A stretch of 62,948 nucleotides of DNA from an uncultured Bacteroidales bacterium (lineage in GTDB: Bacteria; Bacteroidota; Bacteroidia; Bacteroidales; Paludibacteraceae): the NCBI GenBank assembly GCA_902780235.1, contig CACZEL010000023.1:1-62948 (forward strand). Direction: 5' to 3'. The notes below the pieces were generated by a model. The model worked only from the letters and a program-made list of their open reading frames with translations. It made no database searches and was not told where the DNA came from. The translations under genes were made by a program, and so were the position numbers. Numbering within the stretch: position 1 is the stretch's first letter; each line of letters begins with the position of its first letter. Shown here in pieces: positions 1-18,146 of this stretch.

Positions 1-6
1 TTCATG

Positions 7-1591: not shown

Positions 1592-1629
1592 TATATTAGA
1601 ATTCTTAATTTTTAATTCTTAATTTTTAA
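1592..1629. repeat. Heptanucleotide tandem repeat spacer (AATTCTT/AATTTTT)
   Basis: Alternating 7-base units AATTCTT and AATTTTT fill the gap between the carboxylase and barrel genes. It is one of many period-7 spacers in the core parts of this window. Confidence 0.75.
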
Positions 1630-3300
1630 TTAAAATCCGAACGATAGTCCGCAACTAAACGTCAGGTTCTTGCCTTGCTGATAAACCGGACTATATTGGT
1701 CGAGGTCCGCCTGCTCGCCGGCTCGTGCATGGTTGTAACATGCATCGACATGCGCATAGCAGTTGTTGAACACCTCATAAACGGCGCGGAACTTGATCTC
1801 ATCGTTCCGCCAGATGACGTTCTTGAACGGTTCTTGCGCGATGATCTTACCGATATCGCCGCGGATATAGTCGTACGCCGTATATTTGGTGTCATTGGTA
1901 TAATTGAGCATCAGCCTTAGACTCCGCGTCGGACGGTAACTCAACTGCAGCCAGATACTCTGGGCGTTCGACCCCATGTAATGGCCCATCTGATAGCTGT
2001 TCGAGGTATAGTCCAGCACCGCGATCGAGTGTTCGTACGTCGCGATATAACTGCGCATGAACTCGCCTCGCAGCGCCAAGCCTTTTACCGGCCAGCCGCT
2101 CCAGTTGAAACCCACCAGATAGGACACGGGGTTCTTCTGCGGGTTCGATTTCTTGAGACGATCGAACTTAAACTCATCGAGGAAGAACGAACCGTACAGC
2201 CTCAGATGATCGGTCGGACGAACGGTGATCGTTGCAAAAGCCTGTGATCCAGCGATTTATAGAACGCGATCGGAATGAAATACGCAGCTTGCACGTTACG
2301 CTCGGCATAGACGATCGAGTTACCGATCCCGAACTGGATATACTTGCAGGGCATAAACGTGAACATGTTCGCCGCCATGAACTTATTCGCCGGCCGATAT
2401 TCCCGTTGCGTGCTTGTCTCCGTCTGTTGCTCGATGTACCAATAGGTCGAATCGATCACGTTCGAGACCAGCCACGCATGGAAATAGTCGAACTGGAACC
2501 ACTTACACGGCGTTAACTGCAAAGTCACCATCGGTACAGCGGGGTTATGCGCCGACAGGATATTCGAGCAATGTTGCGCATCGCCCCATGCGACCCGTTC
2601 GCGTTGCACGCCGATACTACCCCACCAGGCATAAAGCGATATACCGCCTCGTGAATCCGAGAAATCACCGCCGTAGTTCGCCTCTTTATATTGCACGCCC
2701 GCAAGGTCATTCAAGTATCCCGGCTGCGTGATACGCGCACCCATCGTTTTGCTGCGCGGGTCGTAATAAGCGGCGCTGTTGTAATAGGTCTCATTCAACC
2801 CGTTGCCGCTCCAGCTGTTATCGCGAATCGATCCCCAGATCGACACATGATGCGCGATGTCCATCTGGATCTCCGCGCCATAGACACGATGCATCAGCAG
2901 ACCCTTCTTCGTGTTGTAATCAAGGTCCATGCCAAGGATCGGTCGCAGACGCATTTTGAAGATCTTGTCTTTCGTCAGAATATGCAGACTCGGGTCCGCC
3001 AGATTGAGGTTCGACACCGCCGTCTTCCATTGTGTCACATGCCGATGGCCGTAACTGTAGTACGTCGGCAGCGTGTCGCAGCAGCGAGTCCCTACCCTGT
3101 GCCTCGCGCAACCTTGCCGCGATATAATCCCGCGTGTACGGCTTCACGGCGGCATTGGTCTCAATCACCCCGTCCGTCGTCAACTCCTCGATGAAGTCAT
3201 ACACCTCCGTGTACTCAATCATCTCCGGAATCCGCTGAGCACTTAGACTTAACGAAAGACTCGCCGCAAAAATAAATCCTATCTGTCGTAATGTCGTCAT
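1630..3300 (-). pseudogene. Wzi-like outer-membrane beta-barrel protein, two frameshifts
   Basis: Three reading frames follow one another and restore one 556-residue protein. The N-terminus (MTTLRQIGFIFAASLSLSLS) is a signal peptide, followed by the helical region NAAVKPYTRDYIAARL seen in Bacteroidetes capsule-assembly Wzi-like proteins. The rest is rich in aromatic residues and ends in SFGF, as outer-membrane barrels do. Shifts: one extra base near 3078-3083 (GRDSLL joins DTLPTYYSYGHRH) and one missing base near 2244 (KSLDH joins AFATITVRPTDH). One insertion and one deletion cancel, so the total length stays divisible by three. Probable role is in surface polysaccharide attachment or export; this rests on family resemblance only. 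Confidence 0.65.
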
Positions 3301-3335
3301 AACGTCATAACGAGATATTCATTATTAATTATTCA

Positions 3336-3962
3336 TTATTTCGCATAGCGCGCATTTAGTCCTTCAATCACTTCGTCTGTGATATCGTAGCCGGCTACTT
3401 TATTCATCAGCACGGCGCCGTTGAGGATCAGATGATAACGACCGTCTGCGTTCATCTCCTTCAGATAACTCTGAACCGAATCCGACAACTGTTGGGTCAA
3501 CGCAGCCTGCTGATTCATGAAGTCATTGCTCAACTCCTGACGCAGGTTCTCCAGATCCTGCTGCTTGGCCATCAACTGCTGCTCTTTCTTCTGCAAACGA
3601 GCCTGCTCACTCTCTGCGCGCTCACGGCTCAGGAAAGCACCGGCCTCTACCTTACGCTGAAAATCGATCACATCTTTCTGGAAGGTCTCGTACTCTTTCT
3701 GGAAAGCTTTTGCCTTGCCGTCCAACTTCACCATCGACTCCTCGTACTGGGATTGCAGTTTGTCCGAAGCCTCTACCGCCAAGGTGTAGTGCGCCAAAAT
3801 GGAATCGGTGCTCACTACGGCGATCGGCAGCAACTCACCTTGCGCTTCCACCTCTCCGTTCGCGGACTTCTTTGCCCACGGGTTCACCGTAAAAAACAAC
3901 ACAAACAAGGCAACAACACCCGCTGCCAAAATCGACTCTACAATAATACTAATCTTGTTCAT
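3336..3962 (-). CDS. OmpH/Skp-like periplasmic chaperone
   Basis: About 208 residues. Skp/OmpH proteins hold unfolded outer-membrane proteins in the periplasm. The N-terminus (MNKISIIVESILAAG, then VALFVLFFTV) is a signal anchor or signal peptide; residues 60-160 form a long charged coiled coil (KLDGKAKAFQKEYETFQKDV, ERAESEQARLQKKEQQL), and the C-terminus ends in a small strand region. I start at the ATG at 3962, because the 13 codons upstream are encoded by low-complexity heptanucleotide repeat. It lies directly downstream of the small membrane protein gene on the same strand. Confidence 0.8.
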   Translation of the reverse strand: MNKISIIVESILAAGVVALFVLFFTVNPWAKKSANGEVEAQGELLPIAVVSTDSILAHYTLAVEASDKLQSQYEESMVKLDGKAKAFQKEYETFQKDVIDFQRKVEAGAFLSRERAESEQARLQKKEQQLMAKQQDLENLRQELSNDFMNQQAALTQQLSDSVQSYLKEMNADGRYHLILNGAVLMNKVAGYDITDEVIEGLNARYAK

Positions 3963-3964
3963 TT

Positions 3965-4020
3965 TGATATTTAATTTTAATTTTAAATCTTCAATCTTCA
4001 ATTTTCAATCTTCAATTTGT
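3965..4020. repeat. Heptanucleotide tandem repeat (TTCAATC/TTCAATT)
   Basis: Units TTCAATC and TTCAATT alternate through this spacer and run into the last codons of the gene on its right, supplying that protein's C-terminal KLKIEN. Confidence 0.7.
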
Positions 4021-4198
4021 GCTCCTTTCGGGCAAGTTTGTCTTCCGAAAGAGCACAATGTATACCATCTTGCTTCATTCGCTTATTCTGATGAATATGT
4101 TGCGACCGGAAACTATGATCCTTCCTCAGAATCACACCCACACTCAGCAGCAAAACCGCCGCTCCGATAAGTCCCAACACGATCAATAATTCCTTCAT
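3998..4198 (-). CDS. Small conserved membrane protein
   Basis: A 66-residue protein: one N-terminal membrane helix (KELLIVLGLIGAAVLLLSVGV), then a short soluble tail with HIHQNKRMKQDGIHCALSEDKLARK. The pattern of a membrane helix followed by a basic stretch and a GIxCAxSxD motif matches a widespread unnamed small-protein family of Bacteroidales. Function is unknown. The last six residues are encoded by heptanucleotide repeat, so the original stop has probably moved. It shares a strand and likely a transcript with the OmpH-like gene. Confidence 0.6.
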   Translation of the reverse strand: MKELLIVLGLIGAAVLLLSVGVILRKDHSFRSQHIHQNKRMKQDGIHCALSEDKLARKEHKLKIEN

Positions 4199-4226
4199 AA
4201 TATATACGCGCGCATAAAAATCGCCG

Positions 4227-4258
4227 CAAAATTACTACTTTTTTTTGAAATACGCAAG
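4227..4258 (-). promoter_or_regulatory. Promoter for the small membrane protein/OmpH pair
   Basis: Read on the minus strand: CTTG, 20 bases, then TAATTTTG, matching the Bacteroidetes housekeeping pattern, about 30 bases upstream of the start codon. Confidence 0.5.
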
Positions 4259-4456
4259 CGCGCACGCGTTTTTCTGTTATTTTTTTTGCAAGTACATCAT
4301 CTTCGATGACATAAAGAAACGTTCTTATGTTTTTAGGGAATTCTTGCATCTTTGGTTCCACCTCTTTGCGCTTCTGATTTTTGCAAATGTGATTTTGTGA
4401 ATAATGGGCACAAAAGATCCCGTCGGAGAAGAAAAATCGCAAAAAAATTAGAGGTA
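4259..4456. other. Spacer at the left edge of island 1
   Basis: AT-rich spacer between divergent genes. I see no convincing reading frame, RNA gene or heptanucleotide repeat here. It marks the change from repeat-containing core DNA to the accessory island. Confidence 0.4.
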
Positions 4457-4471
4457 TGCCACAATTTGGCA
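4457..4471 (+). promoter_or_regulatory. Operator palindrome, site 1 (AAA+ ATPase promoter)
   Basis: TGCCACAATTTGGCA is an inverted repeat (TGCCA / TGGCA around CAATT). It sits exactly 11 bases upstream of TATCTTTG (4483-4490), the -7 element of the AAA+ ATPase gene. Two more sites with the same spacing occur at 8245 and 12664. Confidence 0.75.
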
Positions 4472-4482
4472 ACCTAGCGTTG

Positions 4483-4490
4483 TATCTTTG
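4483..4490 (+). promoter_or_regulatory. -7 promoter element of the AAA+ ATPase
   Basis: TATCTTTG followed by GCAGCGC, identical to the start of the other two operator promoters. A canonical -33 TTTG at the right distance is missing; the palindrome occupies that position. Confidence 0.65.
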
Positions 4491-4514
4491 CAGCGCAATT
4501 AAAAATTTACGAGT

Positions 4515-6173
4515 ATGAAAAAGGATTTAAAAGCAACAGAAGTAACGAAGTTAACGCAAGTTCAGTTAGTGGATGAAATCATCGTTCGAATGGAAGACAA
4601 GAAGTTGTCTGAAGAGAGTGTCAAGAAGGCAAAACCTTTTATGGCAGAGTTTGCAAAACGGAATAACATATCCGAAAATGCTGCGATGTTGTTTGCTGCG
4701 TTCTTCAATAGTTTCGCGGACAATCACATCTGGATTAGGGATGTTGCAGGATTCTTTGAGTGCAATAAAGTAAAGATATTGACCATGTGGTCAGCCGTTG
4801 AAGAATTGGTAAACCGTAGATTTATCCTTCAATATAAGAAGGACAATGGGGACCTGTATTTCACGGTTCCCAATGACGTAGTTGCGGCTATGCGCGAAGA
4901 TAGAATTTATTCTCCGAACGCCAAGGCGGATTTAACGATTGATCAATGGATGACTGCGTTGAGTAGGCTGTTGAATGACAAAGATCATGATAATATTCCA
5001 TTTGTCAATTTTGTCGCAGACCTTCAAGTCTTAATCAATGCCAACAAACACTTGGTGATTGCACGTGAATTGGCAACGATTAAGGATGAAGAACACTTGG
5101 TTATCTTTGCAGGCATCATGGATCTGTTCGTCAGAAATAACGACAATCACGTTATCCGCGAAGATATCGAAGATATCATGGAGACACGTTGGCAGATGCG
5201 TATGCATGCGCGGTTGTTAGAGAAAGGTGTTCATCCTTTGCAGATTGCAGGACTTATAGAGCATAGTGACAGTAACGGGCAAGTGGAAGCGGATGCATGG
5301 AAGTTGACAGACGCGGCCAAAGAGCGATTCTTGGTGGAAGTGGATTGCTCCACGCCGATTGAAAGTGATAAAAATATCCAGAAAGCGGATAGTATCACGG
5401 AGAAACCGCTGTTCTTCAATGCGGCTGTAAGCAAACAGATGGCACAGCTGGAGACACTGCTTCAAGAAGATCGTTTTGCAGCTGTTCAGGAGAACTTGGT
5501 GAAACACGGAATGCGTCGCGGTTTTGCATGTATCTTCTACGGAGCGCCAGGAACAGGTAAGACGGAGTCGGTGTTGCAGTTGGCTCGCAAAACAGGGCGT
5601 GGAATTATGATGGTAGATGTGCCCAGTTTGCGCGATAAGTTTGTAGGCGAGACAGAAAAAAACACCAAAGCTATCTTCGATAAATACCGTAAGGTCTGCA
5701 AGAACTCCAAATTGGCTCCAATTTTATTGTTTAACGAGGCAGACGCGGTGCTATGCAAGCGAAATGAAGGAGCAACAGGAAGTGTGGACAAAATGGAGAA
5801 TGCGATGCAGAATATCATCTTGCAAGAGATGGAGAATTTGGAAGGCATTATCATTGCCACAATGAACCTGACGGGAAATCTCGATACGGCTTTCGAACGT
5901 CGATTCCTGTATAAAGTTGAGTTCCCGAAGCCGACCCCGAACGAGAGTCAACACATCTGGCACGCTATGTTGCCGGAGATCAGTGAAGCGGAGGCATTTG
6001 AATTGGCGAAGCAGTATGCGTTCAGCGGTGGTCAGATTGAGAATATCGCGCGCAAGCAGCTTGTCAATGCCGTGCTGACAGGTGAGGATAAGGTAAGTAT
6101 GGAAGCGATTCAGGAAGCGTGCAAGTCGGAGTTGTTCAAGAACTCCTCGATGAAGAGAATCGGATTCTGTTAA
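4515..6173 (+). CDS. AAA+ ATPase with N-terminal helical/winged-helix region
   Basis: 552 residues. The C-terminal half is a classical AAA module: Walker A GAPGTGKT (about 342-349), Walker B region APILLFNEADAVL, a sensor-1 IIIATMN and an arginine pair FERRF. The Walker B acidic pair appears as Asn-Glu rather than Asp-Glu; I have seen this form in related Bacteroidetes ATPases, so it may be normal for the subfamily. The N-terminal half is helical with a probable winged-helix (EDIEDIMETRW region) and no known catalytic motif. The gene is alone on the plus strand, convergent with the retron, and its promoter carries the island operator. Substrate unknown; a remodelling role in a defence or stress response is inference. 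Confidence 0.8.
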   Translation: MKKDLKATEVTKLTQVQLVDEIIVRMEDKKLSEESVKKAKPFMAEFAKRNNISENAAMLFAAFFNSFADNHIWIRDVAGFFECNKVKILTMWSAVEELVNRRFILQYKKDNGDLYFTVPNDVVAAMREDRIYSPNAKADLTIDQWMTALSRLLNDKDHDNIPFVNFVADLQVLINANKHLVIARELATIKDEEHLVIFAGIMDLFVRNNDNHVIREDIEDIMETRWQMRMHARLLEKGVHPLQIAGLIEHSDSNGQVEADAWKLTDAAKERFLVEVDCSTPIESDKNIQKADSITEKPLFFNAAVSKQMAQLETLLQEDRFAAVQENLVKHGMRRGFACIFYGAPGTGKTESVLQLARKTGRGIMMVDVPSLRDKFVGETEKNTKAIFDKYRKVCKNSKLAPILLFNEADAVLCKRNEGATGSVDKMENAMQNIILQEMENLEGIIIATMNLTGNLDTAFERRFLYKVEFPKPTPNESQHIWHAMLPEISEAEAFELAKQYAFSGGQIENIARKQLVNAVLTGEDKVSMEAIQEACKSELFKNSSMKRIGFC

Positions 6174-6179
6174 ACGAAA

Positions 6180-6213
6180 AAGCAGCGCAGTCTCGAAAGG
6201 GATTGCGCTGCTT
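6180..6213 (-). terminator. Intrinsic terminator of the retron operon
   Basis: A 10-bp perfect stem (AAGCAGCGCA / TGCGCTGCTT) with a 14-base loop, followed on the minus strand by TTTTTCGTTT. It lies 15 bases after the reverse transcriptase stop and between convergent genes. Confidence 0.7.
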
Positions 6214-6228
6214 GGGTGAAATCGGCAC

Positions 6229-7242
6229 TTATTTCTGAATATGTTTTCCGCGAAGGGCCAAATTCAATTTTATGCACAACGCACGATAAGTAGAATCAGA
6301 TTTCCCTTTAATCATTCTTAAATAGTTCAACTTGCCATAGGCCACATTTAGCTTATGATTATCTATCATGGGCGATATGGCTATGGAATGGATGAGGGCG
6401 CGAAGATTCTTGACGTATGTGCGCGAAACATTAACTTTCTCTCCGACGGTTAATCCTGTTACCTCTTGACGAGTTCCACGCTTTAATAAACGAGTTTTTG
6501 TAGGATTGAGCGATAGATTGTTGTCCATAATGATACGCTGCAGTTCTTGCATAAACTCTCCGTCCGATTGATAAACATTATGATTACTGCTGAATGTCAT
6601 ATCGTCTGCATAGCGCGTATAATCTACATGAAAACGCTTGGCTAAACCTATTAAACGTTGGTCGAGCATTTTGCAGAAGATATTAGACAAAACAGGCGAT
6701 GTGGGTGCTCCTTGTGGAAGATAACAACGATTACTTTTTTTATCTTCAGGTATAGTACAAACTTCAGCAATTAAACGAGCCACAAAGGGTTCTACATTAA
6801 TACGAGTTAGAGATTGCTCTACCATACGAGCACTAATAGATGGGAAAAAGTCTTGGAGATCTAAGTTTAAAACATAGTTCTTATTAAGATGACATAAAGC
6901 ATTGTCGCGCACAGATTTGCCGTAAACAAAACCCATTACCTCTTTTGGTGGTGTATAAATCGAGGACAATATAAAATTGAGACAGGTTTGAATTTGTTTC
7001 AATTCTTTTTTTGGAGCTCTAATCATTCTGTAACCACCTGATTTCTTGCGGATTTTAAATTGACGATATGCATGTCTACGATTCGAAGCTAGTTTGAAAA
7101 ACGTTAGACGATCTGAAAGGAAATCACTTTGAATAGCAAGGGTAGAGACATATGGACCAATAGCACTAATTGTGTGACAAAGTGCATCGATCGATGTAAC
7201 ATCAACCTCATTCCTTAACTGTGTAAATAATTTCCCGTCCAT
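6229..7242 (-). CDS. Retron reverse transcriptase
   Basis: 337 residues. It makes msDNA by priming reverse transcription from a 2'-OH of its own RNA. Visible motifs: retron motif X NAxxH as NALCH (114-118), RT motif A NLDLQDFFPSI, motif B LPQGAPTSPVLSN, catalytic YADD (211-214), and the retron-specific VTG (261-263). The N-terminal RKKSGGYRMIRAPK is the usual fingers segment. The start at 7242 lies 13 bases after the end of the retron RNA (7256), the normal arrangement. No effector is fused or clearly co-transcribed; the neighbours are the AAA+ ATPase (convergent) and the 192-residue orphan (upstream, same strand). Assignment as a retron rather than group II or Abi RT is firm because both the protein motifs and the RNA are present. 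Confidence 0.93.
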   Translation of the reverse strand: MDGKLFTQLRNEVDVTSIDALCHTISAIGPYVSTLAIQSDFLSDRLTFFKLASNRRHAYRQFKIRKKSGGYRMIRAPKKELKQIQTCLNFILSSIYTPPKEVMGFVYGKSVRDNALCHLNKNYVLNLDLQDFFPSISARMVEQSLTRINVEPFVARLIAEVCTIPEDKKSNRCYLPQGAPTSPVLSNIFCKMLDQRLIGLAKRFHVDYTRYADDMTFSSNHNVYQSDGEFMQELQRIIMDNNLSLNPTKTRLLKRGTRQEVTGLTVGEKVNVSRTYVKNLRALIHSIAISPMIDNHKLNVAYGKLNYLRMIKGKSDSTYRALCIKLNLALRGKHIQK

Positions 7243-7255
7243 AAAACAAAAAATA

Positions 7256-7479
7256 CTTGGAGAACATAGGTACTTCTAAAAGATGGATTCAAGCGATGCG
7301 GCAAGCGCGGCGTTCAAGCCTTTAGGATACTCCATGAAGTGGAGCGGACTAAAGGTAATGCCGAGCGATAGCAAAGCGCAGAAGCCGACAGAATAAACGT
7401 TGTTGTCAAGACCGTTACGGGACTTGATATCTGCCGATAACAGCAGACGGGGTTCAAGTGGATTCCTATGTTCTCCAAG
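7256..7479 (-). ncRNA. Retron msr-msd RNA
   Basis: Flanked by a perfect 15-bp inverted repeat CTTGGAGAACATAGG: a1 at 7465-7479 and a2 at 7256-7270. This a1/a2 pair is the defining feature of a retron RNA, with the branching G expected at the GG ending a1. Inside, read 5' to 3' on the minus strand, are two msr-type hairpins (TCTGC/GCAGA, 7430-7447; TCAAG/CTTGA with inner CCG/CGG, 7406-7427). An msd-type stem follows (CCTTTAG/CTAAAGG enclosing CTCCA/TGGAG, 7319-7355). About 224 nt in total. The exact branch base and the msDNA ends cannot be read by eye. Confidence 0.88.
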
Positions 7480-7490
7480 CAAATCATGCG

Positions 7491-7522
7491 CAAAGGTACA
7501 ACTTTTTTTTCAAACAAGCAAA
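7491..7522 (-). promoter_or_regulatory. Retron promoter
   Basis: TTTG (7519-7522), 20 bases, TACCTTTG (7491-7498). Transcription would begin around 7485, a few bases before a1. The island palindrome is absent, so the retron looks constitutive. Confidence 0.75.
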
Positions 7523-7565
7523 TTATTGCTAAAAAATTTTCAAATTAACGAACTTAAAAGTGCCA

Positions 7566-7598
7566 GCCAATCCGTCCGGGTGTCGTACGGATTGCGGC
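7566..7598 (-). terminator. Possible terminator after the 192-residue gene
   Basis: Stem GCC..AATCCGT / ACGGATT..GGC with an 11-base loop, followed on the minus strand by TGGCACTTTT. It lies about 30 bases past the stop of the upstream gene. Confidence 0.45.
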
Positions 7599-7625
7599 AA
7601 TCATTCAACCACAAGAGGGTTTTCA

Positions 7626-8204
7626 TTATTGGAGAACAGCGACTGAGAAATCAAGTGCTTCGATCTCTGCGAGGAGCTTCTTGCAATCTTCTTCGGACAT
7701 TCTCTCTACGTGGTTCTTGTAGTACTTGCGCGTGAGGTCGAAGTGGAGATTGTAGATCGCTTTGATATCCTCGATGTAACCGTCTGCTTCCCAGTTCTCC
7801 ATGATGTCGGTGACAACATCTCCGCGGATTCCGGGCCAAATCGTTACAGGCGTTTCCTTTGCGTCTTTCTCAAGGCGTGCGACGAGTTCGTTGTGGAGGA
7901 AGACGAGCGGAAGGATGAAATCAGCGCCTTTCATGAGGAGTAAACCCTTCCGAGTCTCTTCGTCATTTCGATCGCGGCAAACGATGCCATACGGTACAGC
8001 CTTTTTCGGGCTCTTGAGAAGCTTGAGCAGCTTGCCCGAATTATAGAGACGTTCGTAGTCGAACGAAAGGCGGTCATTGTGCTCACACAGAGCCTCGATA
8101 GTTTTGGGATCGAGAGAGTCGTCAATAGACGGATTGTGAGCTACGATGGTTTGGTTGAAGATTTCTGTTGCTTTCATTTGCTTAAGTTTTTGATGGTTAA
8201 ACAT
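7626..8204 (-). CDS. Orphan 192-residue protein under the island operator
   Basis: I do not recognise the family. The protein is soluble, mostly helical and acidic, with no signal peptide or membrane segment. Noticeable stretches are YGIVCRDRNDEETRKGLLLMKG and TIWPGIRGDVVTDIMENWEADGY. Start: ATG at 8204 gives a leader of about 15 bases from the predicted transcription start; an internal ATG at 8177 (MKATEIFNQ) is also possible. Its promoter is the second operator promoter, and the next gene downstream is the retron, so it could supply a partner function to the retron. That link rests on position and shared control only. Confidence 0.65.
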   Translation of the reverse strand: MFNHQKLKQMKATEIFNQTIVAHNPSIDDSLDPKTIEALCEHNDRLSFDYERLYNSGKLLKLLKSPKKAVPYGIVCRDRNDEETRKGLLLMKGADFILPLVFLHNELVARLEKDAKETPVTIWPGIRGDVVTDIMENWEADGYIEDIKAIYNLHFDLTRKYYKNHVERMSEEDCKKLLAEIEALDFSVAVLQ

Positions 8205-8225
8205 GTTGGTTTTTCAAAACCGCTG

Positions 8226-8233
8226 CAAAGATA
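8226..8233 (-). promoter_or_regulatory. -7 promoter element of the 192-residue gene
   Basis: TATCTTTG on the minus strand, followed by GCAGCG, 11 bases from the palindrome at 8245-8259. Confidence 0.65.
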
Positions 8234-8244
8234 GTATCTGAGAG

Positions 8245-8259
8245 TGCCGAATTGCGGCA
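8245..8259 (-). promoter_or_regulatory. Operator palindrome, site 2
   Basis: On the minus strand TGCCGCAATTCGGCA (TGCCG / CGGCA around CAATT), identical to site 3 and two substitutions from site 1. Flanking CTCTGCCGCAATTCGGCACT is also shared with site 3. Confidence 0.8.
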
Positions 8260-8297
8260 GAGAGGGGAAGAAAATGCAAAAAAGAGCAGAAAAAAGG

Positions 8298-8810
8298 TCA
8301 GATACGGTCGATACAAAAGTCTTTTCGACCACAAGATTTGCAATGCGTTCCTTCCCAAACGGAGTCGAAATGGCTCATCGCGGCATCAATAAAACCGGGT
8401 TCGTCAGTAAGGAATCCCGCCTCAAAATTGCGGTTAGCTGAGGATTTCATTCCCATACCGGCGCCGGTGAGATTGGCAGAACCAACATAGACCAGATTGC
8501 TATCCATTACTATTATTTTCATATGCACGCGCGGACACAAGCGATGCTCCATACCACCCCATAAAGCCGGATACTTATCAAAATCTTCGCGGAAAGCAGT
8601 GCCCGGCTCTTTGGCATGAATAAGACGTACCTCCACACCTTTCTTCACCAAGTCATTGAGAATCTGAAGCAGCGGAACTACTGCCCCGCCTTTCTTCTCA
8701 ACGTACAAATCCTTCAGGTCAGCGGTTGCAATCCATAGCAACCGCTTGACCTTTGGAATCTGCGCGATGACTTTAGAGTAATGGTCCGTATCGGCGATGT
8801 AAGTGGTCAT
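8298..8810 (-). CDS. Phospholipase D-like nuclease, single HKD motif
   Basis: 170 residues with one HxK(x)4D active-site motif (HMKIIVMD) followed by VYVGSANLTGAGM, as in PLD-family nucleases (Nuc, BfiI type) that act as dimers. The C-terminus carries a small cysteine cluster (HCKSCGRKDFC), possibly a metal-binding knuckle. Start ATG at 8810 lies 4 bases after the stop of the DUF262 gene, so it is the last gene of the five-gene operon. In defence systems such proteins cut DNA; here the target is unknown. Confidence 0.8.
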   Translation of the reverse strand: MTTYIADTDHYSKVIAQIPKVKRLLWIATADLKDLYVEKKGGAVVPLLQILNDLVKKGVEVRLIHAKEPGTAFREDFDKYPALWGGMEHRLCPRVHMKIIVMDSNLVYVGSANLTGAGMGMKSSANRNFEAGFLTDEPGFIDAAMSHFDSVWEGTHCKSCGRKDFCIDRI

Positions 8811-8813
8811 AAA

Positions 8814-10508
8814 TTATATATTATTCAAATCCCAGATATCCATTGCGGCTTCTATAATTTTCTTCTGCCGATTCTCTATTGCTCTACTATCCCAAACCGG
8901 ATTAGTTTTGTTGCTTACAAACTCTACAATCTCTTTCTGCTGATTGAGCAGATTGTCTTGTCCGTAAGAAGCAAGTTTTTGTGCAAATGATTTATTGCCA
9001 ATAGAACTATTATGGCTTTGAGAAATCAACATCAGGTTACCAACAGAATTTAACCATTCTCCGGAGGATATGCCATTTTCACCTTCGTACTCTCCGTATC
9101 CATTTGCTATAGGATCTCCGTTTGTAGGAGTTTGAGGAGCAATATGTTCTATGCTTTCATTTTTGATCAAATCATCAAAAGTTACTTTATGTGGCATAGG
9201 ATGATTCTCGTTGCATAAATATAATTCGTATTTCCATAAGAGATAGTTATCTACTCTATTTCGATAGAACCATCCTTTTAAAACTCTTTTCATTTCATGG
9301 TCTCCCCAATACCACCACCAGCCATTGTTCTTGATGAGCCAGATCATTTCGGTTATACCTTTATCTATATCATTTTCCTTTGTCAAATAATGATTAAGTC
9401 GGCTCTCAACATCTGCTCTTCCTCCACGGAGTAAAGTGCGGAATGTGATATTTTCCAAGAAATGAGCTAATCGAGTATAGGTTTTTTCAGAAACTCTTAA
9501 TCTATCAGCTTTCATAAAGAAGGGATAAGAAAGGGCCATATTATTCAAATAACGTAAATCCATAATATAGCCATCTTTACTATTCTCGATTTTCTCAACT
9601 GTTATAAAGGCAGAGGAAAGTCCAAACATAAAATCCTTTATCCATTGTATTTTATCCTCTACTTTCAAAAGGGTCTGTTTTATTTGGGAAACGCTATCTT
9701 CACTATTAAAACCTCTAGAATTATAGGAACGCCAGAAATAATTAAGTACCTCATCTTCTTTTATTGTAACACGAACAATCTTAGAATAAATATCCGAAAA
9801 ATATCTTTCAATATAACGAATATTTTGATTAGCTAGATCTTCTCCTTCAGAATGAAGGTATATCTGTAGCATAAAGAAAGACTTAATAATTTCTAAATTT
9901 GACAACGGTTTACCGCGATCATTCTGAAAAGCAAAAATTTGGGCAGCCTGAATCTTATTATCGACTTCAAAATATGTAATACGAGCTTCTTCGATCAAAT
10001 GATACCAGCGAAGCAACTCTTCTGTGTCAGTTTCAGCAAACTTTTTTAGAAAGCGCTCCTTTGCATCTCTTATTCTTTGCTGAGATCGTGTCGTAGGATT
10101 GCCCGCATTATGAGAATGCTCAATAATCTCATCTAAAAAGAAATTATTATCTTCGTCTACAGTTTCAAATTTTTGTATACCCTTTCGCAAGTCTTTTAGA
10201 TAATAGTCTATGATGTCATCTAAATCTATACAAACATCCTTCCTGTCTTTTAGCACCTCGCTTAAGCAGCTAAAAAAGATAACGCACGTCGTTAGACGTT
10301 GCTGACCATCTATAATTAATAGAATTGACTTATCCTCTGATTTTTCGAAAAGGAAATGACCAAGATAATATTGGGAAGAAGCATTCTCTAAGTCTTCAAT
10401 AAATTGATTTATTTGTGTTTCTCCCCAACTATATGAACGCTGATATGCCGGAATCTTAAAACGGATTCCTTTTACACAAAAAAGTGAAGAAATGTTAGTA
10501 ATTTCCAT
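8814..10508 (-). CDS. DUF262-DUF1524 nuclease (GmrSD/SspE-like)
   Basis: About 564 residues. The N-terminal DUF262 domain has the fold signature YQRSYSW and IIDGQQRLTT (about 67-76), an NTP-sensing ParB/Srx-like motif. The C-terminal DUF1524 domain has the His-Me nuclease signature SIEHIAPQ and NSVGNLMLISQSHNSSIGNKSF. This two-domain order is that of type IV modification-dependent enzymes (GmrSD) and SspE. I start at ATG 10508, 12 bases after the previous stop; an upstream TTG at 10529 overlaps that gene. Composition is clearly AT-richer than the core genes, consistent with transfer. It is the fourth gene of the operon starting at the exonuclease. Confidence 0.88.
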   Translation of the reverse strand: MEITNISSLFCVKGIRFKIPAYQRSYSWGETQINQFIEDLENASSQYYLGHFLFEKSEDKSILLIIDGQQRLTTCVIFFSCLSEVLKDRKDVCIDLDDIIDYYLKDLRKGIQKFETVDEDNNFFLDEIIEHSHNAGNPTTRSQQRIRDAKERFLKKFAETDTEELLRWYHLIEEARITYFEVDNKIQAAQIFAFQNDRGKPLSNLEIIKSFFMLQIYLHSEGEDLANQNIRYIERYFSDIYSKIVRVTIKEDEVLNYFWRSYNSRGFNSEDSVSQIKQTLLKVEDKIQWIKDFMFGLSSAFITVEKIENSKDGYIMDLRYLNNMALSYPFFMKADRLRVSEKTYTRLAHFLENITFRTLLRGGRADVESRLNHYLTKENDIDKGITEMIWLIKNNGWWWYWGDHEMKRVLKGWFYRNRVDNYLLWKYELYLCNENHPMPHKVTFDDLIKNESIEHIAPQTPTNGDPIANGYGEYEGENGISSGEWLNSVGNLMLISQSHNSSIGNKSFAQKLASYGQDNLLNQQKEIVEFVSNKTNPVWDSRAIENRQKKIIEAAMDIWDLNNI

Positions 10509-10519
10509 AATGCCTATAA

Positions 10520-10825
10520 TTATTCCCAACGATGAGAGATTTCTTTAAGTTTTTTATCATAAGTATAAATCATACCATTCTTACGGAAATTAATAGAGAT
10601 GCCTGCCGCATTCTTATAGTTCCCTAACGATGATTCCCAATTATGAGCAAGTTCTGAAAGCTTCTCATCATACACATATATTATTTGATTCTTACGACAG
10701 ATAATAAAAGTTCCTGTAAAACCAAGTAATTCTCCTATAGAAGAAACCCAATTATGGGAGATTTCTCTTCCTTGTTCGTTAAGGACATAGTACATTTGAT
10801 TTTTGCTTACAATATCTGATATCAT
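10520..10825 (-). CDS. Small three-repeat protein of the defence operon
   Basis: About 101 residues built from three similar units: KNQMYYVLNEQGREISHNW, KNQIIYVYDEKLSELAHNW and KNGMIYTYDKKLKEISHRW, joined by SSIGELLG/SSLGNYKN linkers. Each unit is two strands ending in (S/A)HxW, a small beta-repeat like a solenoid or propeller blade. I know no named family. No signal peptide is evident if the start is taken at ATG 10825. It sits between the EVE-like membrane protein and the DUF262 nuclease with very short gaps, so it probably acts with them, perhaps as a sensor or adaptor. Confidence 0.65.
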   Translation of the reverse strand: MISDIVSKNQMYYVLNEQGREISHNWVSSIGELLGFTGTFIICRKNQIIYVYDEKLSELAHNWESSLGNYKNAAGISINFRKNGMIYTYDKKLKEISHRWE

Positions 10826-10871
10826 AATTAAATACACTAACATGTGCCGTGCGCAACTTCAACTCAACAAT

Positions 10872-12083
10872 TTATAGATTCTTTAATGTTTCTATTTCAC
10901 ATTTTATTGCAATGTCACCAATTTTACCAAATTCCGGATTGTTGGCAGCTAATGCATCTTTGTATTTTGAAACAATTTTATCACCATATTCTTTCCAATA
11001 CCTGCAAATAGTAGGACGATAAGCCGCAACATCTTCATCTTTGGGAATCAACATACATGCTAATGGCCTTACTATAAGATTAGCACAAAAATCTGCTCCA
11101 TCTTCGACTCCTCTATAAATATCATATTTCTCAACATCAATTTTTAATTGAGTTTCATCTGTAATCGTGATTTTATTATTCGAGTGTGCCAAATCTACAA
11201 TAATATCTTCTCTTAAGGTCTCATCCTTATAGTAGAAAATTCTTCTTCCAATTGCCTCAAAAATGCCTAAAAACTTATTTCCTTTGTTGTAAAGGAAAAT
11301 GAGGTCCCCTTTATCTACTTGTTTCAAGATGTTTGTACGTTTGTCTTCACCATATTCGATCAGTGCCAACTCATAAACACCATTCTTTAATGCGTTTTGT
11401 TGCATTGAGCGATTAGCCATATTCATGTGCCAATACTGCCGCTTAGAACCAACAATTTCGGAAGTCGCTATATTATCTGCAGTTGGTTCTTCCTCATTGT
11501 CAATTTCATTCTTCTGATCTTGTGTCAAGAATGCTTTCCACAAAGGGATAGCCAAATTATCACCGTCCGGCTCTGCTTCATTTAATATATCAGTGCGCAA
11601 AATTCGAGTAATCATTCCTAATGTCTTAATTATTTCCTCAGGGTCCTCTTCATTTCTTTTTGCGTCTTCAACACACTTCGTTAGTATTTCTATATTTTTA
11701 GTGAGTTTTCCAAAATCTTCTTTACGTAGCATAAAGATCAATTTGTTAAAAACTTCACTCCTTAATACATTTAATTCCTGAGCATCAAGTTTCCCATCTG
11801 CATACAAATTCCACATTTTTGAGATGAATTCAGAATAAACATCCAACTTCATTCCGTAAATCTTAATGTTCTTTTCTTTCTCTTGCTCACTTTTTAATTG
11901 AGAACCAATAACCATACGCGTGATAATGGCTGTCAAAATCGCGCCTAATGCAGCACTTACGACTATAGCCATTCCTTGTGAATAGACTTCAGGAGATTTC
12001 CACACAAAGAAACAAAGTGCAATTAGAACAACTACTCCAACTGCAATGACAATTGATTGCCAAATAATTGATTTGTTTTTCAT
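10872..12083 (-). CDS. Membrane protein with possible PUA/EVE-like C-terminal domain
   Basis: About 403 residues. Two membrane helices near the N-terminus (IIWQSIVIAVGVVVLIALCFF; MAIVVSAALGAILTAIITRMV) are followed by a basic/acidic helical stalk of about 130 residues. A C-terminal domain beginning near QYWHMNMANRS follows, with ILKQVDKGDLIFLYNKGNKFLGIFEAIG. The pattern of an initial YW, a 'k.GD.i.lY' turn and a 'flGifea' strand resembles PUA/EVE domains that read modified bases or tRNA; this is a visual match only. Start ATG 12083 follows the exonuclease stop at 12101; an ATG at 12125 would overlap it. Its place between a nuclease and a modification-dependent nuclease fits a sensor role. Confidence 0.6.
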   Translation of the reverse strand: MKNKSIIWQSIVIAVGVVVLIALCFFVWKSPEVYSQGMAIVVSAALGAILTAIITRMVIGSQLKSEQEKEKNIKIYGMKLDVYSEFISKMWNLYADGKLDAQELNVLRSEVFNKLIFMLRKEDFGKLTKNIEILTKCVEDAKRNEEDPEEIIKTLGMITRILRTDILNEAEPDGDNLAIPLWKAFLTQDQKNEIDNEEEPTADNIATSEIVGSKRQYWHMNMANRSMQQNALKNGVYELALIEYGEDKRTNILKQVDKGDLIFLYNKGNKFLGIFEAIGRRIFYYKDETLREDIIVDLAHSNNKITITDETQLKIDVEKYDIYRGVEDGADFCANLIVRPLACMLIPKDEDVAAYRPTICRYWKEYGDKIVSKYKDALAANNPEFGKIGDIAIKCEIETLKNL

Positions 12084-12100
12084 AATAGTATTTGTATTTT

Positions 12101-12619
12101 TTACAATATTTCTCTTGCTATCCATGCACAGGCTTCGGCGTCAGCGAGGGCGTGATGGTGGTTCGCTAAGTCGTAGCCACAAGCAGCAGATACCGTTTGC
12201 AGTTGGTAATCCTGCAAACCGGGTAATGCGCGACGAGCTGCGGAGCATGTATCCATGAACGGGATGCACGGATAAGCTAAGTCATAAGTTGCATAAGCCG
12301 CACTCAAGCAACTTTTATCGAAGCCTGCATTATGCGCTACAAAAGGCACCTCGCCATCTTCGATGTAAGGAAAATAGGACTTCACAAATTTCATTGCCTG
12401 CTCCCATACTTCCGGAAACTCATCCGCATCATTCGTATCGTCATATCCCAAGCCATGAACTTGTTGACAAAACCATGAATAATAATTCGGCATTGGCTTG
12501 ATTAGCGCGTAAAAACTATCTACCATTTCACCGCCTTGCACAATGACAATACCCACCGAACAAACACTGGAGCGTTGTCCATTGGCTGTCTCAAAATCTA
12601 TTGCTACAAAGTCTTTCAT
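12101..12619 (-). CDS. DnaQ-like 3'-5' exonuclease (DEDDh)
   Basis: 172 residues. Exo I FVAIDFETAN with D8 and E10, Exo II FVAHNAGFDKSCL, Exo III HHHALADAEACAWI (H and D). This is the complete DEDDh set of the DnaQ/RNase T superfamily, here stand-alone without polymerase parts. It is the first gene of the five-gene operon and follows the third operator promoter with a leader of about 25 bases. It could trim DNA or small RNA; nothing in the sequence decides which. Confidence 0.88.
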   Translation of the reverse strand: MKDFVAIDFETANGQRSSVCSVGIVIVQGGEMVDSFYALIKPMPNYYSWFCQQVHGLGYDDTNDADEFPEVWEQAMKFVKSYFPYIEDGEVPFVAHNAGFDKSCLSAAYATYDLAYPCIPFMDTCSAARRALPGLQDYQLQTVSAACGYDLANHHHALADAEACAWIAREIL

Positions 12620-12644
12620 AAGTTGATATTTTTGTTTTGCGCTG

Positions 12645-12652
12645 CAAAGATA
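12645..12652 (-). promoter_or_regulatory. -7 promoter element of the five-gene operon
   Basis: TATCTTTG on the minus strand followed by GCAGCGC, 11 bases from the palindrome at 12664-12678. Confidence 0.68.
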
Positions 12653-12663
12653 CTGCTTTAGAG

Positions 12664-12678
12664 TGCCGAATTGCGGCA
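12664..12678 (-). promoter_or_regulatory. Operator palindrome, site 3
   Basis: TGCCGCAATTCGGCA on the minus strand, identical to site 2, with the same 11-base gap to TATCTTTG. It lies 9 bases past the stop of the UDG-like gene. Confidence 0.8.
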
Positions 12679-12687
12679 GAGGGCAAA

Positions 12688-13386
12688 TTATTCTTGATTA
12701 AAAAGACTTAAATATAAGGAATGTAAATTCATTATTGACATATTACTTCTTAAAATGCTCGGATGAGGGATACCCATAAATTGGATACCACTTCGTTTCC
12801 ATAAATAGCAAGTGAGTGTTTTCCCCTGAGCATTTCTTTGGAATTTGACAATTTTTGGATTAGATGCGATTTGTTTTTGGATACTATTACTATAAGAAAT
12901 AACCAAATCTGGTTTAAATTTCGCCAACATAGCATCTAATATGACTGTGTCTTTTTCAATTTCTTCTTTTTCGAAAGCAGAAGAGTCAGCAACCTTCTTT
13001 CTGAAACTATTTTGAATAAAAACCGTATAAGCAACACTATGCCACAAATTCCTTCTCTCTTCCAAGCTCACTCTACGACCGGTAATCCCTAATATTACAC
13101 GAGTCGCTTTGTCATGAGTAATAAACTCTTTAGTTTCAACCCTATGGTTTTGCTCTTCACCTAAATACTTTCGAATAGCTAAAGGACTTGCATCCTTAGT
13201 TATATCTAAATCCAAACGGCCTTCTGGATTCCATTCGTCTAAATAAAAACTCTCACCTAACAATAATATTTTAGGCTGACTATTACAATAACCTGATCCT
13301 ATCCATGGATAAAAATGAATTCCATTCTTTTCACAAAACTCTTGTATCTGTGGATCAAATTTCGCTTTGTCTTCTTGTGATTTCAT
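12688..13386 (-). CDS. Uracil-DNA-glycosylase-like protein
   Basis: 232 residues, soluble. Two segments fit the UDG superfamily fold: an early strand-loop PKILLLGESFY (compare the 'iliiGeaPG' motif) and a late GIPHPS (compare 'hPSP.S'). Between them lies a helical region and PDLVISYSNSIQKQI, where UDG proteins carry a core strand. The catalytic Asp/Asn of true UDGs is not recognisable, so it may bind rather than excise. It is 10 bases downstream of the WYL gene and probably shares its transcript. Confidence 0.5.
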   Translation of the reverse strand: MKSQEDKAKFDPQIQEFCEKNGIHFYPWIGSGYCNSQPKILLLGESFYLDEWNPEGRLDLDITKDASPLAIRKYLGEEQNHRVETKEFITHDKATRVILGITGRRVSLEERRNLWHSVAYTVFIQNSFRKKVADSSAFEKEEIEKDTVILDAMLAKFKPDLVISYSNSIQKQIASNPKIVKFQRNAQGKTLTCYLWKRSGIQFMGIPHPSILRSNMSIMNLHSLYLSLFNQE

Positions 13387-13396
13387 GTGTATTAAA

Positions 13397-14308
13397 TTAT
13401 TTGTACAATTTGTGCATTTCTGCTATTTCTTCCTTGATCTGGGCGCGGAGGGTCTTGGGTGAAAGAACCTCAACGTTCGCTCCGTGTGAGAGGATTTCTT
13501 GGCGCAGCTCGTACGTAGGAACAACAAAGTAAGAGAAAACAGAATAGTCCTCGGTCGTCTCTTCTTCTTTCTGCGAACGATGGAGCGGCAACGAACGGAA
13601 ATAAGGCACTTGGGAAGCGGACACTTTGAGGTTGATTAACTCGGGCGTACCGTTCAAACCTGTTACTCCGTATGAAAGTTGGAAATGACGTGCCACATCG
13701 AAGTCCTCTGGGATTTCGTACGATTCGTCCGTGCGCTCCACTGCCTCAAAACGGTCGAGCGCATAGATAAGAAGTCGGTGATCCGGATATTGTGATTCTG
13801 CCAAGACATACCAACGCTGCTTGAAGATCTTCAGTCCGTATGGCTTGATGGTAAAGGTAGATGGTTCGGGCTTATTGAAACCACGGTGAGTCACACGCAG
13901 GGCAACTTTATCACGGATCGCTTCCAAGATGGTCGTCAGGAAACGTTGACCGGAAGGCACTTCTTCAAAGCAGATATGCTGACGCAAGTGCTGACCTTCG
14001 TTAATGAGATTGTTGACGGCGAACGTGTTGATGAGCCATTTGCGCATAGCGTGTCGCTCAATGTCGCTGCGGTCTTCGATATAATAGCCCTTCCATTTGT
14101 CGTACTCAATAGAGATCTGGAAGAGTTCTTCGATAGCGATGCGCCAACGATGGAACGTGCGAGGTGGAATACTCATCTCGTCTTCGCTCAGTAACGAGCG
14201 ACACCAACGGCGATCGATCTCATCGCGGGATATGTGCCCCGCAGAATAGATAGTGTCTATAAGCCAAATGTACTTATTCAGCAATATGGCAGAGTTCTGT
14301 TTTGGCAT
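13397..14308 (-). CDS. WYL-domain transcriptional regulator
   Basis: 303 residues. The N-terminus is a winged helix (ISRDEIDRRW, PPRTFHRWRIAIEELF). The middle carries the WYL domain (SFTIKPYGL-like TFTIKPYGLKIFKQRWYVLAES, then RLLIYALDRFEAV) and the C-terminus the WCX extension. WYL regulators such as CapW and BrxR bind inverted repeats upstream of defence genes and release them on sensing a ligand, often nucleic acid. This gene has a plain promoter, while three neighbouring transcripts carry a shared palindrome, so it is the best local candidate for the regulator of those sites. Direct evidence is absent. Confidence 0.85.
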   Translation of the reverse strand: MPKQNSAILLNKYIWLIDTIYSAGHISRDEIDRRWCRSLLSEDEMSIPPRTFHRWRIAIEELFQISIEYDKWKGYYIEDRSDIERHAMRKWLINTFAVNNLINEGQHLRQHICFEEVPSGQRFLTTILEAIRDKVALRVTHRGFNKPEPSTFTIKPYGLKIFKQRWYVLAESQYPDHRLLIYALDRFEAVERTDESYEIPEDFDVARHFQLSYGVTGLNGTPELINLKVSASQVPYFRSLPLHRSQKEEETTEDYSVFSYFVVPTYELRQEILSHGANVEVLSPKTLRAQIKEEIAEMHKLYK

Positions 14309-14339
14309 AGCTTTAAAGTTTTGCTCACAATTTTGCGTG

Positions 14340-14371
14340 CAAAATTACAAAAAAGTTTTGATATGCGCAAA
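14340..14371 (-). promoter_or_regulatory. Promoter of the WYL gene
   Basis: TTTG (14368-14371), 20 bases, TAATTTTG (14340-14347). It is a near copy of the promoter at 14604-14635: about 40 bases are alike, including ATAAATGTGC on the plus strand. Confidence 0.75.
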
Positions 14372-14409
14372 TAAATGTGCTATTTTCTTCATCTGTACCT
14401 TGACGGATA

Positions 14410-14600
14410 AAATAAAAAGACCACTTTCACTTACCGGAAGGTAGGCTCTGGAAAGCCCTGTAACCAAATAAGCAAAAGCAGTCTACACCATACGGTGGAC
14501 TGTTCAACTTATCTCCCTTGGTTACAAGATAGATTTTCCAGATTTACCTTCCAAGTTGATACGTTGATACGTCTCAATTATGTCTGTCTTCGAAAAGACA
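14410..14600 (-). ncRNA. Structured noncoding RNA candidate (6S-like size)
   Basis: A promoter at 14604-14635 starts transcription at about 14600. The RNA begins with TGTCTT-TTCG-AAGACA (14585-14600), a UUCG-tetraloop hairpin. A long interrupted hairpin follows: GGAAGGTA/TACCTTCC (14436-14443 with 14545-14552), CTGGAAA/TTTCCAG, GTAACCAA/TTGGTTAC, ATAAG/CTTAT, CAGTC/GACTG and CACC/GGTG around a 4-base loop. It ends near GGTCTTTTTATTTT. Length, about 190 nt, and a long bulged rod are what 6S RNA looks like, but I cannot confirm that family. No good reading frame covers it. It lies upstream of the WYL gene on the same strand. Confidence 0.65.
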
Positions 14601-14603
14601 GCG

Positions 14604-14635
14604 CAAAATTACAAAAAAGATTTCACATACACAAA
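14604..14635 (-). promoter_or_regulatory. Promoter of the structured RNA
   Basis: TTTG (14632-14635), 20 bases, TAATTTTG (14604-14611): an exact match to the consensus spacing. Confidence 0.75.
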
Positions 14636-14666
14636 TAAATGTGCACTTTTTCATAATTTTTTCCGT

Positions 14667-14690
14667 TTGGTATAGACCACTCTTGCATTT
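14667..14690. repeat. 24-bp direct repeat, copy 1
   Basis: Begins TGGTATAGACCACTC and ends GCATTTT. An exact copy lies at 16120-16143; the pair flanks the BspA-like gene. Confidence 0.85.
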
Positions 14691-14711
14691 TAATGCCCCC
14701 AAATCAGAACA

Positions 14712-16061: not shown

Positions 16062-16119
16062 AATACATGATTTTAGTTTTGCCTACTCTTCTTCGGATTT
16101 TCGGCGATCTCCGTTATAA

Positions 16120-16143
16120 TGGTATAGACCACTCTTGCATTTT
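16120..16143. repeat. 24-bp direct repeat, copy 2
   Basis: Identical to 14667-14690. It lies in the predicted leader of the BspA-like gene, just downstream of a -7-like TACCTTTG (minus strand, 16150-16157). Confidence 0.85.
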
Positions 16144-16260
16144 GGCGTGCAAAGGTACTGCTTTTTTCTGAGCCAAATCGTGCCAAATCAAACCTTTTCG
16201 TACCAAGTGTCATTTTGTGCCAAATTTTACCAAATTTAGAAGATTTTTTTGCTGATTTTC

Positions 16261-16291
16261 TTGCATATATCAAAATTTCTTAGTACTTTTG
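16261..16291 (+). promoter_or_regulatory. Promoter of the HTH-kinase pair
   Basis: TTG at 16261-16263 and TACTTTTG at 16284-16291, about 20 bases apart, 22 bases before the start codon. Confidence 0.65.
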
Positions 16292-16312
16292 CAAACGATT
16301 TTGGTTAGCATT

Positions 16313-17909: not shown

Positions 17910-17966
17910 TCAGCACACATTTGGGGGGCGAATTACTCATCTATCTTCATTTTTTCCTCCCAAAAA

Positions 17967-17998
17967 TTTGCATATCTCGATTATTTGTAGTACCTTTG
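17967..17998 (+). promoter_or_regulatory. Promoter of the GNAT-fusion gene
   Basis: TTTG (17967-17970), 20 bases, TACCTTTG (17991-17998). It lies about 150 bases upstream of the start codon, leaving a long leader. Confidence 0.75.
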
Positions 17999-18146
17999 CA
18001 GCGGATTTAGCTATCAACTTGCTATCCGCACCATAGGATGCCCATAACATTCCCATAGGATTCCCATAGGATAGAAAGCTAAAAATGCAAAAATTGTACA
18101 TATACTATATATATACTATGTATATATATACTTTTTGATTAAAATT
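17999..18146 (+). promoter_or_regulatory. Structured leader with 11-bp tandem repeats
   Basis: The leader starts with a hairpin (GCGGAT-tt-AGC / GCT-ATCCGC, 18001-18029). Four 11-base units follow (ACCATAGGATG, CCCATAACATT, CCCATAGGATT, CCCATAGGATA; 18030-18073). An AT-rich tract with TATATATACTATGTATATAT (18108-18127) completes it. The AT motif and an 11-bp repeat array recur together near 45.6-45.9 kb. Confidence 0.6.

Follow-up and report, generated by a model that had tools for sequence, protein, structure and literature searches.

A shared operator 11 nt before the -7 box defines a multi-promoter regulon in a Bacteroidales gene island, very probably read by a local WYL protein

In Caulobacter crescentus, the WYL factor DriD is described as recognizing a pseudo-palindromic site that lies over a poor -35 element, at a constant distance from the -10 element, in several target promoters (PMC12340889). 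PafBC, according to the account in PMC11804915, recognizes a -26 motif and stands between promoter DNA and domain 4 of the sigma factor, which is normally found at -35. Here we analysed a 62,948-nucleotide (nt) contig from an uncultured Bacteroidales bacterium of the Paludibacteraceae (GCA_902780235.1, contig CACZEL010000023.1, positions 1 to 62,948 of the forward strand; this whole stretch is the window), in which a gene island encodes a WYL protein and carries the same 15-bp palindrome, hereafter the operator, at three promoters. The locus addresses an open question, namely how defence islands stay quiet and then switch on: one local WYL protein appears to exert joint control, probably by activation, over several modules with promoters of their own.

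The three palindromes lie on both strands, and each ends 11 nt before TATCTTTGCAGCG, exactly as a first-pass annotation of this DNA had placed them. Operator 1 (TGCCACAATTTGGCA, 4457..4471, +) precedes the -7 box TATCTTTG of promoter 1 (4483..4490, +), and two copies of TGCCGCAATTCGGCA (operator 2, 8245..8259, -; operator 3, 12664..12678, -) precede the same box in promoter 2 (8226..8233, -) and promoter 3 (12645..12652, -); TATCTTTGCAGCG itself spans 4483-4495 (+), 8221-8233 (-) and 12640-12652 (-). All three operators match TGCC(G/A)CAATT(C/T)GGCA exactly. Their outer arms change in step, reading TGCCA/TGGCA at site 1 and TGCCG/CGGCA at sites 2 and 3; such covariation would be seen for a symmetrical dimer site. 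The genes assigned to these promoters also hold: an AAA ATPase, an orphan of 192 amino acids (aa) and a five-gene operon.

The palindrome is not widespread in the source genome (2,278,966 bases in 58 contigs, 78.63% complete), where the only three exact copies lie inside the island. Allowing two mismatches added 14 further matches, all on other contigs, and a reversed pattern likewise gave 14. When the palindrome was required together with the -7 box, up to three mismatches returned the same three sites alone, and the reversed control returned none. A chance palindrome is ruled out by these genome-wide scans, their reversed controls and a motif-free palindrome scan.

The distance to the -7 box is close to invariant in relatives. 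Our comparison set comprised 17 relative stretches, 12 taken at operators and 5 at close WYL genes, to which we added 80 at WYL homologues, most of them with 40-53% identity; among these loci (numbered L), L104-L115 were picked for the operator and L116-L200 for WYL homology with operators disregarded. In positions 1-18500 of the window and the first 57 stretches, with up to two mismatches and spacers of 5-20 nt, all 64 matches fell at spacer 11, and the reversed consensus gave none. The operator was present in 25 of the 45 loci picked for WYL (L116-L160), with 31 matches, all at that one of the 16 spacers scanned. Over all 97 loci and the window, 70 of 71 matches to this operator (class A) lie at 11 among spacers 5-20. 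A search that did not require the -7 box, at up to one mismatch, found a box at exactly 11 nt from 41 of 46 class A sites and from 30 of 35 sites of class B, a second operator described below; 20 control regions, hand-picked from contigs of the same genomes, held no class A site and one class B site. A motif-free scan of the 97 stretches for perfect 15-bp palindromes with 5-bp arms gave 45 at spacer 11 and a mean of about 5 at the other spacers from 3 to 25 (largest 20, at spacer 25), and control sequence (324 kb, 331 -7 boxes versus 1728) had none at 11. With 4-bp arms, spacer 11 yielded 87 palindromes and 0 in the controls; spacer 9 yielded 45 and 9, the same rate in both. These inferred binding sites occupy the -35/-33 place, at one distance from the -10/-7 box.

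In the promoter scheme set out in PMC7366714, TTTG at -33 is paired with TAnnTTTG at -7. Of 136 control promoters, 35 have TTTG at offset 24, against 0 of 90 operator promoters (39/136 and 0/90 at offsets 23-25), so the operator promoters have a poor -35/-33 element, and they do so because the operator sequence occupies that place. The first-pass proposal that the palindrome stands in for the -33 box is thus borne out; it had left the choice between a repressor and an essential activator open, and we favour an activator. After the -7 box, CAGCG occurs in 67 of 122 operator promoters and in 4 of 302 control sites. This motif often pairs with a CGCTG slightly downstream (GCAGCGTGATTC..GAGTCACGCTG; L123, L127, L155, L171, L183, L109 and others), in 29 of 62 non-redundant CAGCG promoters against 0.8% in shuffles and in 0 of 3 window promoters; a hairpin at the 5' end of operator transcripts is possible.

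Across related genomes, the palindrome at 11 nt from TAnnTTTG marks the promoters of defence-type islands. A survey of 358 genomes of the family for operator-N9..13-TAnnTTTG found operator and -7 box in 12, including the source, at 24 sites that all have spacer 11; the reversed control found none. The same pattern in named GTDB genomes gave 41 stretches with 48 matches, 39 of them at spacer 11, several coinciding with family-survey sites. Four records named outside Bacteroidota (L035, L037, L040 and L045) have spacers of 12, 9, 13 and 12, scattered as chance hits should be; the remaining departures from 11 are spacers of 12 at three rtcB loci (L039, L043, L047) and at L060, and of 9 at L058. 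RtcB RNA ligase genes of other Bacteroidales stand behind a class A operator with spacer 11 or 12 in L039, L043, L047, L063 and L070, identified as RtcB by Pfam in L039, L043 and L063. In Bacteroides fragilis (L056:4850-6421), a MoxR-family ATPase gene (bpMoxR 3.2e-50) follows TGCCTCAATTTGGCA-N11-TATTTTTG; the sole WYL homologue found there lies 1.5 Mb away from it.

Of the 358 family genomes, 209 encode WYL homologues (E up to 1e-30). At 22 of the 24 family operator sites, the same contig has such a homologue less than 12 kb away (maximum 11,577 nt), and at seven of them the distance is no more than 100 nt. The WYL gene itself is led by 22 of 105 operators; one stands immediately before it in L021/L033, L049, L054, L064, L065, L073, L105, L106, L109 and others. 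Since these relatives come from one family, many of the sites are homologous and not independent. The expectation that the island's neighbours move together in relatives was mostly upheld for operator and WYL gene (22/24 sites); the cargo is mosaic.

A second, unrelated palindrome, TTTCATCTTGTGAAA, defines class B and has the same geometry in a sister WYL clade. Its 20 perfect sites are spread over 12 stretches; islands frequently have two of them, and some stand in front of WYL genes. When 89 WYL proteins are placed on a tree, class B falls within a single 34-row clade (SH-aLRT (approximate likelihood-ratio test) 100, quick method), and the 36 class A and 17 class B rows are accounted for by a single change of operator class. 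Another 15 WYL genes have a relaxed form of class B, class C, in front of them at spacer 11; the N-terminal domains of the WYL clades show systematic residue differences. Across the order, class B sites turned up in 3 of 393 genomes with spacers of 13, 13 and 9 and none at 11; six of the genomes were from this family, all without a site. One stretch (L173, G160:C5:56000-75500) has three class B-clade WYL genes within 20 kb, possibly a tandem of islands. At the sequence level, the regulon stands. The local WYL protein (13397-14308) is very probably the reader of the operators, given the linkage, the WYL genes that have operators in front of them and an operator class that follows the WYL clade; this agrees with its earlier designation as likely regulator.

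This protein (13397..14308, -) has Pfam matches to WYL (2.2e-12) and WCX (3.6e-12). Its N-terminal part has no Pfam match; in an AlphaFold2 (AF2) model (mean predicted confidence, pLDDT, 84.7), the first 78 residues form three helices and two strands, resembling a winged helix-turn-helix (HTH), so that Pfam and model together give an HTH, WYL and WCX architecture. Among PDB profiles, PafBC is the best match (6.7e-16), followed by DriD (9e-13), CapW (1e-3) and BrxR (5e-3). DriD is the best Foldseek match (7e-14) and has the highest structural Z (18.7); by VIA Z, PafBC, BrxR and CapW are tied and DriD alone stands out. The fold match to DriD extends over residues 6-303 with a whole-chain root-mean-square deviation of about 10 Å, and identity in the structural alignments is only 17-20%. 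The WYL gene, like the retron, lacks the operator, just as first annotated. Its promoter is canonical (14340..14371, -; TTTG 14371-14368, TAATTTTG 14347-14340) and shares the TTTG-N20-TAnnTTTG form with that of the retron; several relatives' WYL genes do carry the operator.

We propose that the WYL protein would bind the 15-bp palindrome as a dimer, covering the -33 position 11 nt from the -7 box TAnnTTTG, which would be why these promoters have no -33 box. A nucleic-acid signal bound by the WYL domain, as single-stranded DNA is in DriD and PafBC, would trigger the protein, and the bound protein would keep RNA polymerase with its primary sigma factor at promoters that are otherwise poorly usable. 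Phage attack or DNA damage would then turn on all three units at once: the AAA ATPase, the 192-aa orphan and the operon with the exonuclease, GmrSD and PLD genes. The ordinary promoter of the WYL gene would provide a basal supply, and the operator before the WYL gene in a good share of relatives would make self-regulation possible. For the whole explanation, a WYL dimer on the palindrome activating the three promoters in the manner of DriD and PafBC, we estimate a probability of about 0.62; activation is favoured because of the fixed spacing, the missing -33 box and the similarity to DriD and PafBC.

The same protein could read the same operators as a repressor of the CapW/BrxR type, covering the -33 region and released by a ligand, so that the island would be de-repressed on infection. 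BrxR and CapW, defence-linked WYL factors of tested function, are described as repressors, and part of the promoter data has the corresponding geometry: at 17 of 23 class B/C WYL promoters another TAnnTTTG stands upstream at a distance of exactly 41 nt, in 16 cases with a -33 TTG, which puts the operator at about the start site of that promoter, a repressor's place at the WYL gene. It is chiefly WYL genes in class B/C relatives that have an operator at a start site. We read this as a canonical promoter that supplies basal WYL protein and that bound WYL may shut off, and operator promoters that need WYL. A repressor needs no single exact spacing, yet the 64 matches of the first scan share one. 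The cargo promoters of class A lack a -33 box, and in most of them the region 27-60 nt upstream has no second -7 box either (absent in 53 of 56; 24 of 27 for class B), which leaves little for a repressor to repress. CapW sites are reported to overlap -10 and the main BrxR site to lie downstream of it, unlike the operators here: at each of the three window promoters, 11 nt separate the end of the operator from the -7 box that follows. Sequence and Foldseek scores favour DriD and PafBC over CapW and BrxR, with only DriD set apart by VIA Z. We consider such a repressor, the main rival to activation, unlikely.

Less probable still is that another regulator, such as the AAA protein or a trans-acting factor, reads the operator and that the WYL gene is one more target. 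Any regulator constantly linked to WYL could yield the same linkage, though none was seen; the contigs of two of the 24 family sites (G104:C10 and G113:C51) lack a WYL homologue, the WYL gene of the window is itself without an operator, and operator genes without a linked WYL gene include the MoxR-like ATPase of B. fragilis and rtcB in four of five loci, L039 alone having the link. These observations have to be set against an operator class that follows the WYL tree with one change, and against a WYL homologue encoded in all 14 genomes of one follow-up search, linked to the operator or not. In the 13 operator-bearing stretches (window and L104-L115), WYL is present in 11 and a clear AAA homologue in 4, with a weak one in L114 and a fragment in L112, making the AAA protein an unlikely regulator. 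The idea that the shared promoters are recent recombination copies of one promoter, devoid of regulatory meaning, is largely refuted and seems to us very improbable. Letters beyond the operator are indeed common to operator promoters within a genome (TATCTTTGCAGCG here; the spacer GTTTGAGGTGA, three times, in G162), yet across genomes the spacer varies in sequence at fixed length, the arm letters covary, and another WYL clade shows this geometry with an unrelated second palindrome. Several further points, alongside the repressor precedent, the upstream boxes at class B/C WYL genes, the unlinked sites and rtcB loci and the ambiguity of linkage, weigh against WYL-dependent activation. Class A is rare in 40 further loci (L161-L200; 7 matches in 5 loci, 6 at spacer 11 and one at 14), the AT-rich class B is less clean (35 of 45 at spacer 11 over the 97 loci and window, spacers 5-20), and 36 of the 89 WYL rows have no assigned class A or B operator. 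The mechanism is also a sequence-based proposal: sites, geometry, WYL linkage, the matching of operator class to WYL clade and the lack of a -33 box are read directly, and from these we infer binding, dimerization, activation with its effect on expression, the ligand and defence as the outcome.

The genes under operator control vary from island to island, which argues for a regulon over a mosaic island and not for one system. The description of the locus as one multi-operon system stands in its shared operator, its several operons and its use of both strands, and goes too far in 'one system'; the mosaic cargo rules out a single multi-gene system that is conserved as a whole. In the window, L104 and L116, WYL and AAA genes face inward from the two ends with different cargo between them. 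In a set of 12 islands picked because their WYL proteins are the closest, 8 have the DEDDh family and 8 the GmrSD family, 6 have WG-repeat proteins, 4 have the PLD family, and the AAA, 192-aa and 232-aa families appear in 3 each. Elsewhere the cargo includes a McrBC-type pair in L108 (an AAA_5 protein and a McrBC component, 2e-49), a MoxR ATPase in L105, and HIRAN and PARG proteins in L113. Gene calls and cargo families are the product of a simple open reading frame caller. Much of the cargo looks like nucleic-acid defence, and many cargo genes have no known domain. Another gene led by a class A operator in L105 (L105:5863-6819) appears to join a DnaB-type helicase C-domain to a following sigma-70 region 2, an odd combination.

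One cargo family spans both operator classes. Members of family 26 (139-141 aa; the L104 member has no Pfam match) stand behind operator A in the A-island L104 and behind operator B in the B-islands L171, L183 and L186, and the proteins are 67-68% identical between classes. The fifth member, in L157 (class B clade), has no operator immediately before it. With one family and four promoters, this is a small but pointed case in which a gene appears to bear the operator that fits its island.

Within the window, promoter 1 leads the AAA ATPase (4515..6173, +; 552 aa, IetA-like ATPase domain; Pfam AAA 2.4e-20, PADLOC IetA 9.8e-29), whose gene forms the island's far end and faces inward; the family is led by an operator in the window, L104, L111 and L115. 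Promoter 2 leads the 192-aa orphan (7626..8204, -), which has no credible family match and whose family is also behind an operator in L108 and L116. Promoter 3 leads five close-packed genes running from 12619 down to 8298 (-). The first encodes a DEDDh exonuclease (12101..12619, -; Pfam RNase_T 3.7e-14, PADLOC DEDDh 9e-24), led by a class A operator in seven stretches including the window. It is followed by a 417-aa protein (10872..12125, -; sub-threshold EVE match, E 0.024), a 107-aa orphan (10520..10843, -) with sub-threshold Pfam matches only and none in the other family searches, a GmrSD-type (type IV restriction) protein (8814..10529, -; GmrSD_N 8.4e-35, GmrSD_C 3.9e-16, PADLOC HEC-06 3.6e-46) and a PLD-family nuclease-like protein (8298..8810, -; PLDc_2 2e-14). 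Behind the WYL gene, after a 10-nt gap, lies a gene for a 232-aa protein (12688..13386, -) with homologues in L104 and L109, probably co-transcribed with it. GmrSD, DEDDh, PLD, AAA and retron genes, all putative defence genes, adjoin the WYL gene, which places this factor in a putative phage-defence locus.

The regulon had been described as built around a retron, and this part of the annotation did not survive. The retron-type reverse transcriptase (6229..7242, -; RVT_1 5e-25, PADLOC retron reverse transcriptase classes) has an ordinary promoter, TTTG-N20-TACCTTTG, with its -7 box at 7498-7491 (-) and no palindrome, and no homologue of it was found in the 17 relative stretches; both findings exclude it as the centre of the regulon. 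Upstream lies its non-coding RNA (7255-7487, -; z -5.3), with a long end-pairing stem CTTGGAGAACATAGG/CCTATGTTCTCCAAG; no fused effector domain was seen in Pfam or PADLOC profile matches of the reverse transcriptase. The retron is a passenger, inside the island and outside the regulon.

Two further RNAs lie nearby. An Rfam scan of 3500-18500 found nothing at the operators and one match above gathering score, a DUF805b RNA (16080-16114, -; RF02914, 39.4 bits). A strongly structured RNA (14430-14610, -; z -6.9) with its own canonical promoter sits between a leucine-rich-repeat gene and the WYL gene, and adjoins WYL in G104 too. It has full-length or nearly full-length homologues in at least 8 of the 358 family genomes, including the source, shows two-sided changes at 10 of 54 predicted pairs and has no Rfam match at E up to 1; many short matches of this query are to its promoter only.

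The picture may extend beyond this island. At what we regard as even odds, Bacteroidales would possess a large family of DriD-like WYL activators that act as private promoter-switches for immunity islands, each clade with its own 15-bp palindrome in place of the -33 box at an invariant 11 nt from the -7 box. Genes would join an island's inducible response by acquiring its operator, and regulator and 'password' would change together while the polymerase geometry stays fixed. Because the operator is short, invariant in position and clade-following in sequence, regulon members can be proposed from sequence, including the 192-aa orphan and cargo family 26, and the operator offers a simple way to find candidate defence genes. 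Its promoters also provide a direct test of WYL activation with the unusual primary sigma factor of Bacteroidota. WYL control of defence islands is already known; what appears new here is a fixed geometry that replaces the -33 box, a mosaic regulon spread over several promoters, and an operator and regulator that switch as a pair, and we found no such arrangement described in the portion of the open-licence literature on WYL factors that was covered.

Among known systems, DriD, the WYL activator of an SOS-independent DNA damage response, is likewise an HTH-WYL-WCX protein. Its site is 20 bp and ours 15 bp, the promoter class here is TTTG / TAnnTTTG, the targets here form a mosaic island around the regulator, and ligand and activation are putative. 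PafBC, a mycobacterial WYL activator that works by sigma adaptation, is the best PDB profile match; as described, it is two HTH-WYL proteins or a fusion, with the PafB HTH alone on the -26 motif, whereas here there is one gene and a palindrome. SiwR of Mycobacterium smegmatis is described as a WYL activator of adjacent genes under genotoxic stress (PMC10693628). BrxR and CapW are, like the protein here, WYL factors encoded with phage-defence genes, and are reported to bind inverted repeats or palindromes, BrxR at two sites in one island; they are less similar to our protein in sequence and by Foldseek than DriD and PafBC. Their reported sites overlap -10 (CapW) or follow it (BrxR R-BOX1), and the operator here holds the -33 position, a fixed 11 nt before -7. 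Type IV restriction, represented by the GmrSD-type protein of the operon and the McrBC-type pair of L108, is cargo here, and the retron, with its reverse transcriptase and end-paired RNA, travels in the island outside the regulon.

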